NCBI GenBank assembly: GCA_913057205.1
Contig: CAJXNO010000011.1
Span: forward strand, 20,966-84,965
Direction: 5' to 3'
Origin: an uncultured Flavobacteriales bacterium
GTDB taxonomy: Bacteria > Bacteroidota > Bacteroidia > Flavobacteriales_G > Salibacteraceae
Length of the DNA: 64,000 nucleotides
Shown here: positions 1,239 to 7,445 of the stretch, piece by piece
Position numbering within the stretch: position 1 is the first letter of the stretch
Layout: each line of letters opens with the position of its first letter
Made by a program: the position numbers and the translations under genes
Notes under the pieces: generated by a model
Told to the model about the DNA's origin: nothing
What the model saw: the letters and a program-made list of their open reading frames with translations, nothing else
Databases searched by the model: none

Positions 1239-2820
1239 CATAAAAAAAGACAGACAATGAGAAAGACATTATTATTTCTATTTTTTCTAATTACAGCAAT
1301 AAGTCTCAAAGGACAAGACTTAAGCGGATTCAAATATGTTTTTGTTCCAACACTAACCTATCAAAACGGTGGAACAGATATTTGGAGCATATCATCGAAA
1401 TTAAGGACATCATTTATGCAAAAGGGGTTCATTGTTCTAGACGAATCATCTACAGCACCGCAAGAATTACAAAAAGACCCATGTCTACTTTTAAGGTGTT
1501 TTATTGATCATACAAACGTTACCTACGGTACAAACTCTGTTAATCTTACACTTAAAGATTGTAATGACAGAATTGTGCTTACAAGTAAAGGAAGTGCAGC
1601 AGGTTGGTCTGTTCAAGACGATTTTAATAAAGCCACGAGAAGGGCATTTGATAAAATAAGTGACCTTCCATATAGGTTTAACACTTCCAAAACACCCAAA
1701 CTTGATTTACCAGAAGTTGAAAAAACTGAAGAAACTGAACAATCACTAACTGCATATTTTGACTCAAATGCTTTAGACGAAATTGAAGGTATTTATAAAT
1801 CCTACCAGTCTGACCAATTAGGCTATTACAAAATTGGAATCAAAAAATTCGGGAGCAAGTATAAGGCTATAATAATTGAATCTGATCTCAACCATTGGAA
1901 GCAAGGTGAAGTCAAAGCCGTTTTTGAGACTAGCTCAATGAAAGGGTTTTATTCAACAAAATGGTATATGGGGAATAAAACACCATTTGAAACATTCGCT
2001 TTAATGGAAAACCCTGCTTTACTGACAGTTGAGTTTAAAGATGACAAAACAGGCGAAAAGCGAACCGATCAATTTATCAAAATGTATCCGTCAGCGGATG
2101 TAAGCGCCTCTACTGCCATTGATGGTATAAAAGCAACAGGGAGTGGTTTTGTTATTTCTACTGATGGTGTTATTGCCACAAATGCCCATGTAATTGAAGA
2201 TGCTGACAGAATCGAAATACACCTTAATAATGAATTTGGTACAAAAACATATTCTGCTTCAGTTCTTCTAAAGGACGAATCAAACGATGTTGCTTTATTA
2301 AAAATAGATGATGATGAATTCAAAGGATTCAATTCATTGCCATATTCAATTCTTCAAACTACTGAAATTGGTGAAGACGTTTTTACAATTGGCTTTCCAT
2401 TGAGTAGTTTAATGGGTGACAATTACAAAGTAACAAATGGAATTATCAGTTCAAATAGTGGTTTAAAGGACGATGTGCGTTTCATTCAAATCACAGCACC
2501 AATTCAACCAGGAAATTCAGGTGGACCACTTTTTAATAGGGATGGAAATGTGGTTGGTCTGACAACTTCTAAACTAAATGAAAGAGCAATTGGAACATCA
2601 ATTGAAAATGTAAACTATGCAATCAAGGCGACTTACTTGATTAACATATACAACATGCTTCCAAACAAAGAACAACTAAGCAAGAGCTCGACATTATCTG
2701 ACAAGGAGTTAAAAGACCAAGTTAAGGTTCTAAAGAATTATATCTGTCTGATAAAAATATATTAAAAAATACGACTGTCAACAAAAGCTATAGGGCATTA
2801 AAAAGCCCCATAGCCAAACC
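1230..2820 (+). mobile_element. Integron-like gene cassette 2 (trypsin-like protease)
   Basis: Starts GTTGGCAGC (1230); its own hairpin begins ACTGTCAAC, nearly complementary to that start. Confidence 0.6.
1257..2765 (+). CDS. Secreted trypsin-like serine protease (HtrA/S1C-like catalytic domain)
   Basis: Signal peptide; GSGFVISTDGVIATNAHVIEDA, DVALLKIDD and QPGNSGGPLFNRDGNVVGL give the His/Asp/Ser triad context. Confidence 0.85.
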   Translation: MRKTLLFLFFLITAISLKGQDLSGFKYVFVPTLTYQNGGTDIWSISSKLRTSFMQKGFIVLDESSTAPQELQKDPCLLLRCFIDHTNVTYGTNSVNLTLKDCNDRIVLTSKGSAAGWSVQDDFNKATRRAFDKISDLPYRFNTSKTPKLDLPEVEKTEETEQSLTAYFDSNALDEIEGIYKSYQSDQLGYYKIGIKKFGSKYKAIIIESDLNHWKQGEVKAVFETSSMKGFYSTKWYMGNKTPFETFALMENPALLTVEFKDDKTGEKRTDQFIKMYPSADVSASTAIDGIKATGSGFVISTDGVIATNAHVIEDADRIEIHLNNEFGTKTYSASVLLKDESNDVALLKIDDDEFKGFNSLPYSILQTTEIGEDVFTIGFPLSSLMGDNYKVTNGIISSNSGLKDDVRFIQITAPIQPGNSGGPLFNRDGNVVGLTTSKLNERAIGTSIENVNYAIKATYLINIYNMLPNKEQLSKSSTLSDKELKDQVKVLKNYICLIKIY

Positions 2821-2829
2821 GTTGTAAGC
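2774..2829 (+). repeat. attC-like recombination site 2 (short, 56 bp)
   Basis: ACTGTCAACAAAAGCTATAGGGC...GCCCCATAGCCAAACCGTTGTAAGC imperfect inverted repeat. Confidence 0.6.
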
Positions 2830-2853
2830 AATTGAAGAACTCAAATAGGCTTC
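2818..2853 (+). repeat. 36-bp direct repeat, copy 1
   Basis: ACCGTTGTAAGCAATTGAAGAACTCAAATAGGCTTC, identical to 5339-5374. Confidence 0.9.
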
Positions 2854-3313
2854 AATCATCATCGGACTCAACACCAAAGCATTGTAAAGACGATGCTATA
2901 CACCCACATATTGGGTTATACTATACCCTCGAAACCCTGACCAAAACAAGAAACCGATTTAGAATCACACACCCCCAAGGTGATTCGATGCCCTAGGTTT
3001 TAGCTTTCAGGTTTTAGTTGACTTTCAATCAATTACTGAGGTTTTTTATAGCCACCCCTACACTCTAGAGTAACCCCTAACATTTACTCACCTGTGCTTG
3101 TATAGGTCATAGTCAAAAATGATTAACCAGCGTATCCAATACATTCTGAGTAGTTTAGTTTTGTTATTGGGCGTTCCAGAAGTGGTTAATTTAAGCTGTA
3201 TCTTAATAATGGCCTTATCAAAACGCTAAGTTAACATGCTGAAAAAAAGAGTATAAATCCGTTAAACGTCAACTTTATAAGCGATAATAAGTGTGCGCTA
3301 ATAAAACAAGAAC

Positions 3314-4198
3314 ATGCCTAGAGAAATAATATTTGGAGAAATAACAGGGGTTCAAGAGGGTCATTGGTTCGAAGGACGCAAGGAAATGATGCCAGCAAGC
3401 TTTCATCGTAATTGGGGAGCAGGTATTGACGGAAATGGTTCTGAAGGAGCTGCGGCAATTGTCCTCTCTGGTGGCTATGAGGATGATAAAGATCTCGGTG
3501 ATGAAATAATTTACACTGGTGCAGGTGGTAATGATGCAAATTCAGGTAAACAAGTAGCAGATCAAAAATGGACTAATAGAGGAAATGCGGGTTTACTAAA
3601 AAGCATGAACGAGGGACTACCTGTTAGAGTGATCAGAGGATACAAGCACAAATCTCCATTCTCACCTACCTCTGGCTATACATACGCTGGTTTGTATAGT
3701 GTTGTCGATGCTTGGCAAGAAACGGGTAAAAGCGGATTCAAAATTTGTCGCTATAGATTGCTCTATGTGGGAGATAATACCGAAAGGAAATCTGCTGAGG
3801 AAGTTGAATTAGACTTAGATCATAATGTCAGAGAAAAGAAGCGTGTAAAAGGCACTGTTCTGAGAATAGTTCGTGATACAAAATTAGCCCATGATATAAA
3901 AGCACTGTATAATCATAAATGTCAGGTTTGCGATTTTGCTATTCCAACAAAAAATGGATTTTACTCAGAGGGAGCGCATATTAAACCCTTGGGAAAGCCA
4001 CATAATGGTGATGACAGTTTAGCTAACTTAATTTGCCTTTGTCCAAATCATCATGTTATGTTCGACAAAGGCTCTTTTTCAATCTCTGATAATTATGAAT
4101 TACTTGGTGCAGAGTCAGGACAATTAGCAGTGCATACTCAGCATAAAATCGATAAGGAAAATTTAAACTACCACAGAGGAAGTCATGGGTATAATTAA
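3314..4198 (+). CDS. SRA/YDG domain - HNH endonuclease (type IV, modified-DNA-dependent restriction-like)
   Basis: N-terminal GEITGVQEGHWFEGR..GIDGNGSEGAAAIVLSGGYEDDKDLGDEIIYTGAGG is a YDG/SRA signature; C-terminal CQVCDF..GAHIKPLGKPHNGDDSLANLICLCPNHHVMFDKG is an HNH nuclease. Confidence 0.9.
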   Translation: MPREIIFGEITGVQEGHWFEGRKEMMPASFHRNWGAGIDGNGSEGAAAIVLSGGYEDDKDLGDEIIYTGAGGNDANSGKQVADQKWTNRGNAGLLKSMNEGLPVRVIRGYKHKSPFSPTSGYTYAGLYSVVDAWQETGKSGFKICRYRLLYVGDNTERKSAEEVELDLDHNVREKKRVKGTVLRIVRDTKLAHDIKALYNHKCQVCDFAIPTKNGFYSEGAHIKPLGKPHNGDDSLANLICLCPNHHVMFDKGSFSISDNYELLGAESGQLAVHTQHKIDKENLNYHRGSHGYN

Positions 4199-4598
4199 GG
4201 TTGTATGTGGTGTCATTTACGACAATGACAAAGTTTTCATTTGCCGCAGAAAGGAGGGGAAATCTCTTGCTAGTTTTTGGGAGTTTCCTGGGGGTAAAGT
4301 TGAACAAAACGAAACAGATCAACTTGCTTTAAAACGAGAACTTCAAGAGGAACTTGAAATGGAAATAAATATTATAGGTCTTGTTGGCCAATCTAACCAC
4401 GATTATGGGAGTTTTCAAGTTGAATTATACGGATACGCTTGTGATTTAGTCAATTATCAGGGCAAGTTAACCGACCATGATGCTTACAAATGGGTGGATA
4501 TTGCTAAACTAGACGAGTACAAACTTGCTCCTGCAGATATTCCAATTAAACGAATGATAGAAAACAAAAATCGCACAACAAAACCTAAACTGCATTAA
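4185..4598 (+). CDS. Nudix hydrolase, MutT / NudG (CTP pyrophosphohydrolase)-like
   Basis: Nudix box GGKVEQNETDQLALKRELQEEL; N-term VVCGVIYDNDKVFICRRKEGKSLASFWEFPGGK; overlaps the upstream nuclease gene by 14 bp. Confidence 0.85.
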   Translation: MGIIKVVCGVIYDNDKVFICRRKEGKSLASFWEFPGGKVEQNETDQLALKRELQEELEMEINIIGLVGQSNHDYGSFQVELYGYACDLVNYQGKLTDHDAYKWVDIAKLDEYKLAPADIPIKRMIENKNRTTKPKLH

Positions 4599-4626
4599 AA
4601 CGCAGCTTAGCCAAAACGTTATGTGC
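4573..4626 (+). repeat. attC-like recombination site 3 (short, 54 bp)
   Basis: GCACAACAAAACCTAAACTGC-attaaaac-GCAGCTTAGCCAAAACGTTATGTGC imperfect inverted repeat. Confidence 0.6.
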
Positions 4627-5341
4627 AACTAAAAAATAGGAACATATGAAAAAAACGACAGCAACTTTAATCCTAACAATCTTGACAGCCTTTGCATTTG
4701 GGCAGATTGACGACAATTTGACGAAAGCACAGTGGAAACCAGGAAAGGAAAACATCATTTATGAAAATACAATTTTGCGACATGAAGGAAAAAATGATCT
4801 TGGTGGTATACTTAATGTTGGCTTCCAAACATTCGCTCAGGTTAAGGCAGACATAGAGCAAAGAGCTGACAAAGAAATGTGGACACCTGAAAAGAAAAAG
4901 GAAACAGTTGAAGCCTTTGAGAAACTTGCACTCGGTGGTATGATACATTTATACCTTACTCGTCTAACGATCGACGCTGCGAACACTGAAATGTTTACTG
5001 TTGTTGTAAGAGACTCATCTGACAGCAATGAAATCTTAAGGAAAGACCTTAAGAGTGATATTCCAAATACACCGTCAAGTGGGAGTGACTATTGGTGGAA
5101 TTATACTGCAATTCCAATTTCAGAACCTGTCAACGGAAAAATCTATATCTACATAATAGACAAGTTGGGTGGGGACAACAACAAGTTTAAGTTTGAAGTA
5201 AACCTATAAAAGCAGCACATAACAATGGGTATAAAAACATAGGGCGGACGATGGTTTCCGTAAGTTTTTGGCACATAGTAAACTTAGTCTAGGTGGACAG
5301 GAAAGCAGATCCGAAATGCCCTACATTTCATACCCGAGACC
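4618..5341 (+). mobile_element. Integron-like gene cassette 4 (hypothetical secreted protein)
   Basis: Starts GTTATGTGC (4618-4626) and its own hairpin starts with the exact reverse complement GCACATAAC (5215-5223). Confidence 0.65.
4646..5209 (+). CDS. Hypothetical secreted protein
   Basis: 187-aa ORF with signal peptide MKKTTATLILTILTAFAFGQ; sole ORF of cassette 4. Confidence 0.65.
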   Translation: MKKTTATLILTILTAFAFGQIDDNLTKAQWKPGKENIIYENTILRHEGKNDLGGILNVGFQTFAQVKADIEQRADKEMWTPEKKKETVEAFEKLALGGMIHLYLTRLTIDAANTEMFTVVVRDSSDSNEILRKDLKSDIPNTPSSGSDYWWNYTAIPISEPVNGKIYIYIIDKLGGDNNKFKFEVNL

Positions 5342-5350
5342 GTTGTAAGC
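5215..5350 (+). repeat. attC-like recombination site 4 (136 bp imperfect hairpin)
   Basis: GCACATAACAATGGGTATAAAAACATAGGGC...GCCCTACATTTCATACCCGAGACCGTTGTAAGC. Confidence 0.65.
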
Positions 5351-5374
5351 AATTGAAGAACTCAAATAGGCTTC
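5339..5374 (+). repeat. 36-bp direct repeat, copy 2
   Basis: Identical to 2818-2853. Confidence 0.9.
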
Positions 5375-6605: not shown

Positions 6606-7445
6606 ATGAGAATCACCATCCTTGCAGCACTTTTCATATTGGTTTCATGTGATGGGACCGACCAATCAGAGTACGAAGAAGCAATTCACTCGCTTGAGAG
6701 TTCATTTGTTGTTGGTAGAGGAATTAGCAAGATGGATTCAGGAGACTATCGCGGGGCAATAGAAGACTTCAACAAAGCAATTCAGCATGACCCGAATGAT
6801 GCTTTTGCCTACAACAGTAGAGGAATGAGCAAGAGGAATTTAGGAGACTATCGCGGGGCGATAGAAGACTATAGTAGAGCAATTGAACTTGACCCGAATG
6901 ATGCCCTGGGATATGTCGGTAGAGGAATTAGCAAGAAGAATTTAGGAGACTATCGCGGGGCAATAGAAGACTTCAACAAAGCAATTCAGCATGACCCGAA
7001 TGATGCTTTTGCCTACAACAGTAGAGGAGCAATCAAATCACTATTATATGACCATCGCGGAGCTATAGAAGACTATAATAGAGCAATTCAACTTGACCCA
7101 AATAATGCCCAGAGATATGTCGGTAGAGGAATTAGCAAGGCTGATTTAGGAGACTATCGCGGGGCGATAGAAGACTATAATAGAGCAATTCAGCTTGACC
7201 CAAATAATGCCCAGGGATATGTCGGTAGAGGAATTAGCAAGAAGAATTTAGGAGACTATCGCGGAGCAATAGAAGACTTCAACAAAGCAATTCAGCTTGA
7301 CCCGAATGATGCTATTGCCTACAACAATAGAGGAATGAGCAAGCTTTTAATAGGAGATTTTAACGGTGGTTGCCTCGATTTAAGCAGAGCTGGAGAGCTG
7401 GGGCAAATGGAAGTATATGACCTGATTAGAAAGTATTGCCAGTAA
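6606..7445 (+). CDS. Tetratricopeptide repeat lipoprotein
   Basis: Lipobox-like LVSC; six near-identical 34-aa TPR units GDYRGAIEDxxxAIxxDPNxAxxYxxRGxSKxxL. Confidence 0.9.
   Translation: MRITILAALFILVSCDGTDQSEYEEAIHSLESSFVVGRGISKMDSGDYRGAIEDFNKAIQHDPNDAFAYNSRGMSKRNLGDYRGAIEDYSRAIELDPNDALGYVGRGISKKNLGDYRGAIEDFNKAIQHDPNDAFAYNSRGAIKSLLYDHRGAIEDYNRAIQLDPNNAQRYVGRGISKADLGDYRGAIEDYNRAIQLDPNNAQGYVGRGISKKNLGDYRGAIEDFNKAIQLDPNDAIAYNNRGMSKLLIGDFNGGCLDLSRAGELGQMEVYDLIRKYCQ
6740..7350 (+). repeat. 102-bp tandem TPR-coding repeats with a 204-bp higher-order period
   Basis: GACTTCAACAAAGCAATTCAGCATGACCCGAATGATGCTTTTGCCTACAACAGTAGAGGA occurs twice, 204 bp apart. Confidence 0.85.

Follow-up and report, generated by a model that had tools for sequence, protein, structure and literature searches.

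Descriptions of type IV restriction enzymes treat them as stand-alone proteins, and the escape of their hosts from self-cutting is usually put down to absent C5-methyltransferases. In the literature, SauUSI, TagI-type, EVE-HNH and McrA enzymes are recorded as reading 5-methylcytosine (5mC) and 5-hydroxymethylcytosine (5hmC), and TagI cleaves DNA carrying either mark and spares glucosylated 5hmC (PMC6212794). MutT homologues beside Streptococcus homologues of SauUSI appear in a figure legend of Bell and colleagues without a functional proposal (PMC7641849), and a Nudix protein of this kind is already a single-gene candidate in PADLOC, PDC-S07. A word search of two reviews, one recent and the other older, and of the VcaM4I and SauUSI structure papers turned up neither a Nudix nor a MutT partner, and no earlier report of an SRA-HNH gene paired with a Nudix gene was found in the open literature, of which coverage was incomplete. 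Among Nudix enzymes, E. coli NudG acts on 5-methyl-dCTP with a kcat/Km of 1.3e6 M-1 s-1 and on CTP with one of 4.7e4 M-1 s-1, and takes other nucleotides too, 2-OH-dATP among them (PMC5158307); in a published catalogue, the structure 2RRK is listed under 5-methyl-dCTP pyrophosphatase (PMC5389931).

The locus described here combines both kinds of protein. It lies in a window of 64,000 nucleotides, the whole stretch of DNA analysed, from an uncultured Flavobacteriales bacterium, and consists of two genes on the + strand. The first (3314..4198) encodes a nuclease of 294 aa, assigned by Pfam and by phmmer comparison to TagI as an SRA-HNH, TagI-type modification-dependent (type IV) restriction endonuclease. 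The second (4185..4598) encodes a NudG-like Nudix hydrolase of 137 aa, assigned by its matches to NUDIX_4 and PDC-S07 and by its predicted fold. The two reading frames share 14 bp, from the ATG of the Nudix gene to the stop codon of the SRA-HNH gene. An earlier sequence-only reading had described both frames and this overlap; its coordinates are exact, and matches to SAD_SRA, HNH_2 and NUDIX_4 in Pfam agree with its domain assignments.

That reading had also taken the fusion of SRA to HNH for a type IV architecture, which holds. The SAD_SRA match (E 3.3e-47) covers aa 7-150 of the nuclease (3332..3763, +) and the HNH_2 match (E 5.1e-13) covers aa 203-257 (3920..4084, +), while the nearest solved structure is TagI (6ghs), aligned by phmmer over aa 6-289 with E 1.9e-72. 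The first part of this alignment is ungapped, and the residues of the flipped-base pocket given in the TagI paper (PMC6212794), Tyr55, Asp58, Tyr67 and Thr68, recur in the window enzyme with identical identities and numbers. In the HNH domain, with a constant offset of 7, C203, C206, H222, D234 and N238 align to TagI C210, C213, H229, D241 and N245, and C243, H246, H247 and D251 to TagI C250, D253, H254 and D258. All catalytic residues (H222, N238, H247, D251) are thus in place, and the Zn ligands are C203, C206, C243 and H246. The one difference among these ligands is that Asp253 of TagI is a histidine in the window nuclease, giving CxxH in place of CxxD, a variant that is itself named in the TagI paper (PMC6212794). 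Since TagI cuts 5mC and 5hmC DNA and spares glucosylated 5hmC, the same specificity is predicted for the window enzyme by analogy. A profile search of its own genome returned no C5-methyltransferase (PF00145), which is compatible with cleavage dependent on 5mC or 5hmC and expected for the host of an active enzyme. The SRA-HNH gene was missed by PADLOC. Relatives were absent from the viral contigs searched, and the sole match in phage records was to the HNH-side part of the protein (query residues 146-268) in a haloarchaeal virus.

Genes for a tyrosine recombinase, an HTH protein, an AAA protein and a DUF6371 protein lie next to mnmE, upstream of the pair on the same contig, and the pair looks like part of an integrated element beside mnmE. 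Hairpins resembling attC sites repeat at gene ends between window positions 1 and 5350 in an integron-like array, with z values of -0.5 to -3.2 and DNA folds that are no more than suggestive. On the + strand, one hairpin of repeat family D3 (2774..2832, z -2.27) could form the left border of a two-gene cassette; a second member of the same family just 3' of the Nudix gene (4572..4626), weak with z -0.47, could form the right border; and a third (5212..5352, z -3.17) follows the next gene (4646-5209). A purpose-made pattern scan at a strict threshold detected no attC sites in the window, and no integron integrase in the genome exceeded the TIGR02249 cut-off of 265, the best match reaching 111 bits. 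The mobile cassette proposed in the sequence-only reading is plausible, with the upstream recombinase and the hairpins in its favour and the lack of an integron integrase above the cut-off against it. An exact 36-bp direct repeat (window 2818-2853 and 5339-5374) flanks the two genes together with the next one, and its 27-bp core has only two copies in the genome. Further downstream, 102-bp DNA repeats encode a tetratricopeptide-like repeat protein (window 6606-7445). Similar hairpins were seen at another locus, L060 (1907-2008), and around the SRA-HNH gene of L054 (1340-1470 and 2370-2440), which has no Nudix neighbour and where a partial tyrosine recombinase lies about 1 kb upstream.

A neighbourhood search, with lack of recurrence as the outcome that would have spoken against the pairing, found the same two genes elsewhere in Bacteroidota. 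An independent scan of genome contigs yielded seven full-length SRA-HNH relatives with 69-80% identity, each of the seven followed directly by a Nudix gene with the same 14-bp overlap, and four more distinct loci of the same geometry (L019, L065, L066, L068) came from genomes sampled by phylum, class and a second family. Counting the window and leaving out L064 and L067 as duplicates of L012 and L013, there are 12 distinct paired loci, and by locus comparison the overlap (4185..4198, +, in the window) is kept in all 12. Because the same pair with the same overlap occurs in 11 other distinct loci, its arrangement is not due to chance. Named hosts include Algoriphagus, a Flavobacteriia MAG, Sphingobacterium, Aquimarina and Chitinophaga, and in several Bacteroidota families the two genes have been passed on as a unit. 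In the tree, the 12 partner Nudix proteins group as a single clade (support 100/99). In the nuclease tree (n=20), the paired genes fall into one supported group (99/99) that also holds two genes lacking a Nudix, those of L054 and L020. The C-terminal HG(Y/F), which in the other loci overlaps the Nudix start, is still present in these two, and this suggests a secondary loss of the Nudix gene. At about 42-51% identity, the SRA-HNH genes of L048, L021, L069, L070 and L058 have no Nudix neighbour.

In the one Sphingobacterium pair with measurable dS, the nuclease had a dN/dS of 0.04 and the Nudix protein one of 0.11, and both are therefore under purifying selection. Distance matrices of the two proteins correlated over the 12 loci (r 0.77, p 0.0004). 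After thinning of the Sphingobacterium cluster the correlation was weak (r 0.28, p 0.11), and it was dropped as proof of co-evolution for this reason. A defence-island context was seen among relatives and not in the window itself: in Algoriphagus the pair has Septu-like PDC-M62 candidate genes upstream and a DpdF/PsyrT-like helicase downstream, and in Sphingobacterium it is followed by an HNH_4 and HIT gene pair. A protein of 338-341 aa (HNH_4 in L012) together with a HIT-family protein recurs near these modules (L012 5264-6666, L020, L128, L171) and is possibly an undescribed defence pair.

The Nudix protein of the window matches NUDIX_4 with E 6.6e-21 and PDC-S07 with E 2.1e-47. By alignment, its Nudix box GGKVEQNETDQLALKRELQEELEMEI (4290..4367, +) carries the catalytic residues, with E in place of G in the consensus EExG. 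A LAPADIP motif (4524..4544, +) is shared with E. coli NudG, where E. coli MutT has FPPANEP. Within it, the aspartate of PAD (D118), as opposed to the PAN of MutT, is the residue given functional weight as a mark of NudG. The predicted model (mean pLDDT 89) has E. coli ORF135/NudG, 2rrk, as its best fold match in the PDB; MutT2 with 5m-dCTP follows at rank 15 and E. coli MutT first appears at rank 31. The protein scored 86.3 bits against the NCBIfam equivalog for NudG-type enzymes (NF007834, cut-off 156) and 82.3 bits against that for MutT (TIGR00586, cut-off 97.9). As both scores lie below their cut-offs, we call it NudG-like and not NudG, and infer its substrate. Simple identity with MutT was rejected as the best label by the PAD motif, the fold ranking and the equivalog cut-offs. 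The sequence-only reading had offered "NudG/MutT-like", which was right, and the LAPADIP motif and fold ranking make NudG-like the better of its two terms.

Neighbour counts for relatives of the Nudix come from samples taken by genome search. A search of 395 Bacteroidia genomes with the PDC-S07 profile yielded 61 strong matches in 58 of them, and 59 further Bacteroidia Nudix neighbourhoods were taken, 3 of them lacking a readable Nudix frame. Among the 56 readable loci, 27 have a SauUSI-like PLD-helicase-DUF3427 gene directly downstream, always on the strand of the Nudix gene and overlapping it or a few bases away. Conversely, all 16 Bacteroidia genes with DUF3427 scores above 230 bits have the Nudix; 22 genes with weaker DUF3427 scores divide into 10 with it, 5 at contig ends and 7 without, so that 7 of 17 interior SauUSI-like genes of this weaker type lack it. 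Two further Nudix domains of the same family occur in fusions with a Schlafen-group-3 helicase (L109 1035-3389; L128 3125-5497).

About half of the Bacteroidia relatives adjoin other, varied genes, mostly of housekeeping appearance, and the PDC-S07 profile picks up E. coli MutT and NudG as well. The profile is for this second reason too broad to mark the module, and on both counts it was rejected as defence-specific. The same two observations lend some weight to the idea that a general Nudix enzyme, acting on 8-oxo-dGTP, CTP or (p)ppGpp, merely travels with defence genes, for example limiting mutation after nuclease damage, as do the reported activity of NudG on 2-OH-dATP (PMC5158307) and its study in (p)ppGpp metabolism (PMC7593582). 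We nevertheless regard this as quite unlikely, since the tight coupling recurs with several unrelated kinds of modified-cytosine nuclease and the PAD motif and fold are closer to NudG than to MutT.

This recurrence extends to plasmid records. There, the window Nudix is matched best by a Staphylococcus aureus protein, which aligns to PDB 5x1x from end to end (286 bits); one base after its stop codon begins a frame matching residues 1-499 of SauUSI (7clg) with 1095 bits. The SauUSI frame is interrupted in this record (L169 4886-7366), which may stem from a sequencing mistake, the record perhaps being a piece of chromosome deposited as a plasmid. On a Sphingomonas plasmid the Nudix gene stands beside an EVE-HNH gene similar to VcaM4I (6yex, E 4.9e-85). 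On Priestia plasmids it overlaps by 4 bp the gene of an HNH enzyme. The HNH part of this enzyme gives matches to McrA and to PADLOC mREase_IV; the McrA match is confined to this part, with the N-terminal sensor region outside it. Hymenobacter and Latilactobacillus have Nudix genes beside SauUSI-like genes, and a Paenibacillus plasmid encodes an HNH-Nudix fusion. In the plasmid loci of Selenomonas, Pusillibacter, Butyrivibrio, Sphingomonas parapaucimobilis and Rhizobium no type IV gene is directly adjacent. In the Nudix tree the partners of HNH-type enzymes lie apart from those of SauUSI-like enzymes, a split that is not firmly supported (86/92). The Nudix gene at 2995-3381 of plasmid record L180, which overlaps a type IV-like HNH gene, is labelled "8-oxo-dGTP diphosphatase MutT", which is probably wrong for genes of this type. 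Genes annotated as nucleotide pyrophosphohydrolase were also noticed beside a DEAD helicase in Lactiplantibacillus (L183 6304) and beside a DUF2075 gene in Priestia aryabhattai (L181 4665-4994), a further kind of nucleotide-cleaning enzyme in similar surroundings.

The Paenibacillus fusion, together with the coupled translation that the fixed 14-bp overlap of the SRA-HNH pairs suggests, could point instead to a regulatory relationship in which the Nudix protein would hold the nuclease in check by binding it, like an antitoxin, or would respond to a nucleotide signal and so set it free. This seems very improbable, as the catalytic residues of the Nudix are conserved, many relatives of the nuclease do without it, and gene order and spacing vary between nuclease kinds.

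Taken together, the sequence-only claim of a two-gene module is strongly supported by the fixed geometry across loci and by the pairing of Nudix relatives with other modified-cytosine nucleases. That the relatives pair with such enzymes also argues for a modified-dCTP substrate, and the window Nudix is inferred to hydrolyse 5-methyl-dCTP or 5-hydroxymethyl-dCTP. A two-gene module with a modified-dCTP Nudix is thus, in our assessment, likely. If it is one, self-protection would be the probable purpose of the Nudix, starvation of the phage an unlikely one, and a combination of the two less likely again. Overall, we give a slight preference to a two-gene type IV restriction module in which the Nudix removes modified dCTP mainly to protect the cell from its own nuclease. 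The nuclease would cut incoming DNA containing 5mC or 5hmC, and a cell with such a nuclease could not tolerate 5mC in its own DNA. Degradation of modified foreign DNA would release modified nucleotides that might be rephosphorylated and then incorporated into the chromosome, and the Nudix would clean 5-modified dCTP from the pool before DNA synthesis. It would thereby be the counterpart of the methyltransferase of restriction-modification systems, except that the mark is removed rather than added.

Alternatively, the Nudix may take part in the attack, draining the 5hm-dCTP or 5m-dCTP pool of cytosine-replacing phages, with the nuclease dealing with any modified DNA that is still made. The same pairing evidence fits this, 5-methyl-dCTP is a substrate of NudG-type enzymes (PMC5158307), phages with such pools are known (PMC6212794), and the defence-island context in Algoriphagus would suit it. 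A drained pool, on the other hand, would leave less of the mark that the nuclease reads, the Nudix would add nothing against sparsely methylated DNA, and little is known of fully modified phages that infect these hosts. We therefore hold an attacking role to be unlikely. Two points speak for self-protection over starvation. Nucleases among the partners, SauUSI for one, also act on sparsely methylated DNA, which does not arise from phage dNTP pools, and SauUSI is active in E. coli without its Nudix. This cloning host has a NudG of its own. The activity of SauUSI alone was established by cloning there (PMC3874153). Against the preferred reading stands the evolutionary dispensability of the Nudix: SRA-HNH relatives outside the clade are without it, L054 and L020 inside the clade appear to have lost it, and it is missing beside 7 of the 17 interior SauUSI-like genes of the weaker DUF3427 type. 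The activity of SauUSI alone, the other neighbours of about half of the Bacteroidia relatives, the equivalog scores below both cut-offs, the action of NudG on further nucleotides, the restriction of the Priestia match with McrA to the HNH part and the weak distance correlation after thinning also count against it.

The presence of Nudix relatives beside at least three other, unrelated nuclease kinds points to a dedicated partner for many "single-gene" type IV enzymes, one that probably excludes modified cytosine from the DNA of its own cell. Tentatively, and with a little more doubt than conviction, the Nudix may be a second part common to type IV restriction directed at modified cytosine, which SRA-HNH, SauUSI-like, EVE-HNH and McrA-type nucleases would each have acquired separately and which would keep the mark out of host DNA precursors. 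If true, a nucleotide-pool partner would be the missing half of type IV restriction and the NudG group would gain a physiological role. The vague candidate PDC-S07 would become a system with a predicted mechanism, the SRA-HNH gene of the window would join defence annotation, and the defence hypothesis would be directly testable in E. coli.

Among described systems, the SRA-HNH family (TagI, ScoA3IV, TbiR51I) likewise has an N-terminal SRA and a C-terminal HNH domain with the same pocket and catalytic residues; its members outside the clade of the window lack the overlapping Nudix gene that distinguishes this clade. SauUSI with its neighbouring MutT/NudG-like protein is also a 5mC/5hmC-dependent enzyme beside a Nudix of the same family, although its nuclease architecture is unrelated to SRA-HNH and the Nudix gene comes first. 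E. coli NudG/Orf135 is the best structural match to the window Nudix and has the same LAPADIP motif, but nudG has no adjacent nuclease gene in the E. coli record examined. PDC-S07 of PADLOC, finally, is a single-gene candidate that the window Nudix matches, whereas the window holds a two-gene pair.
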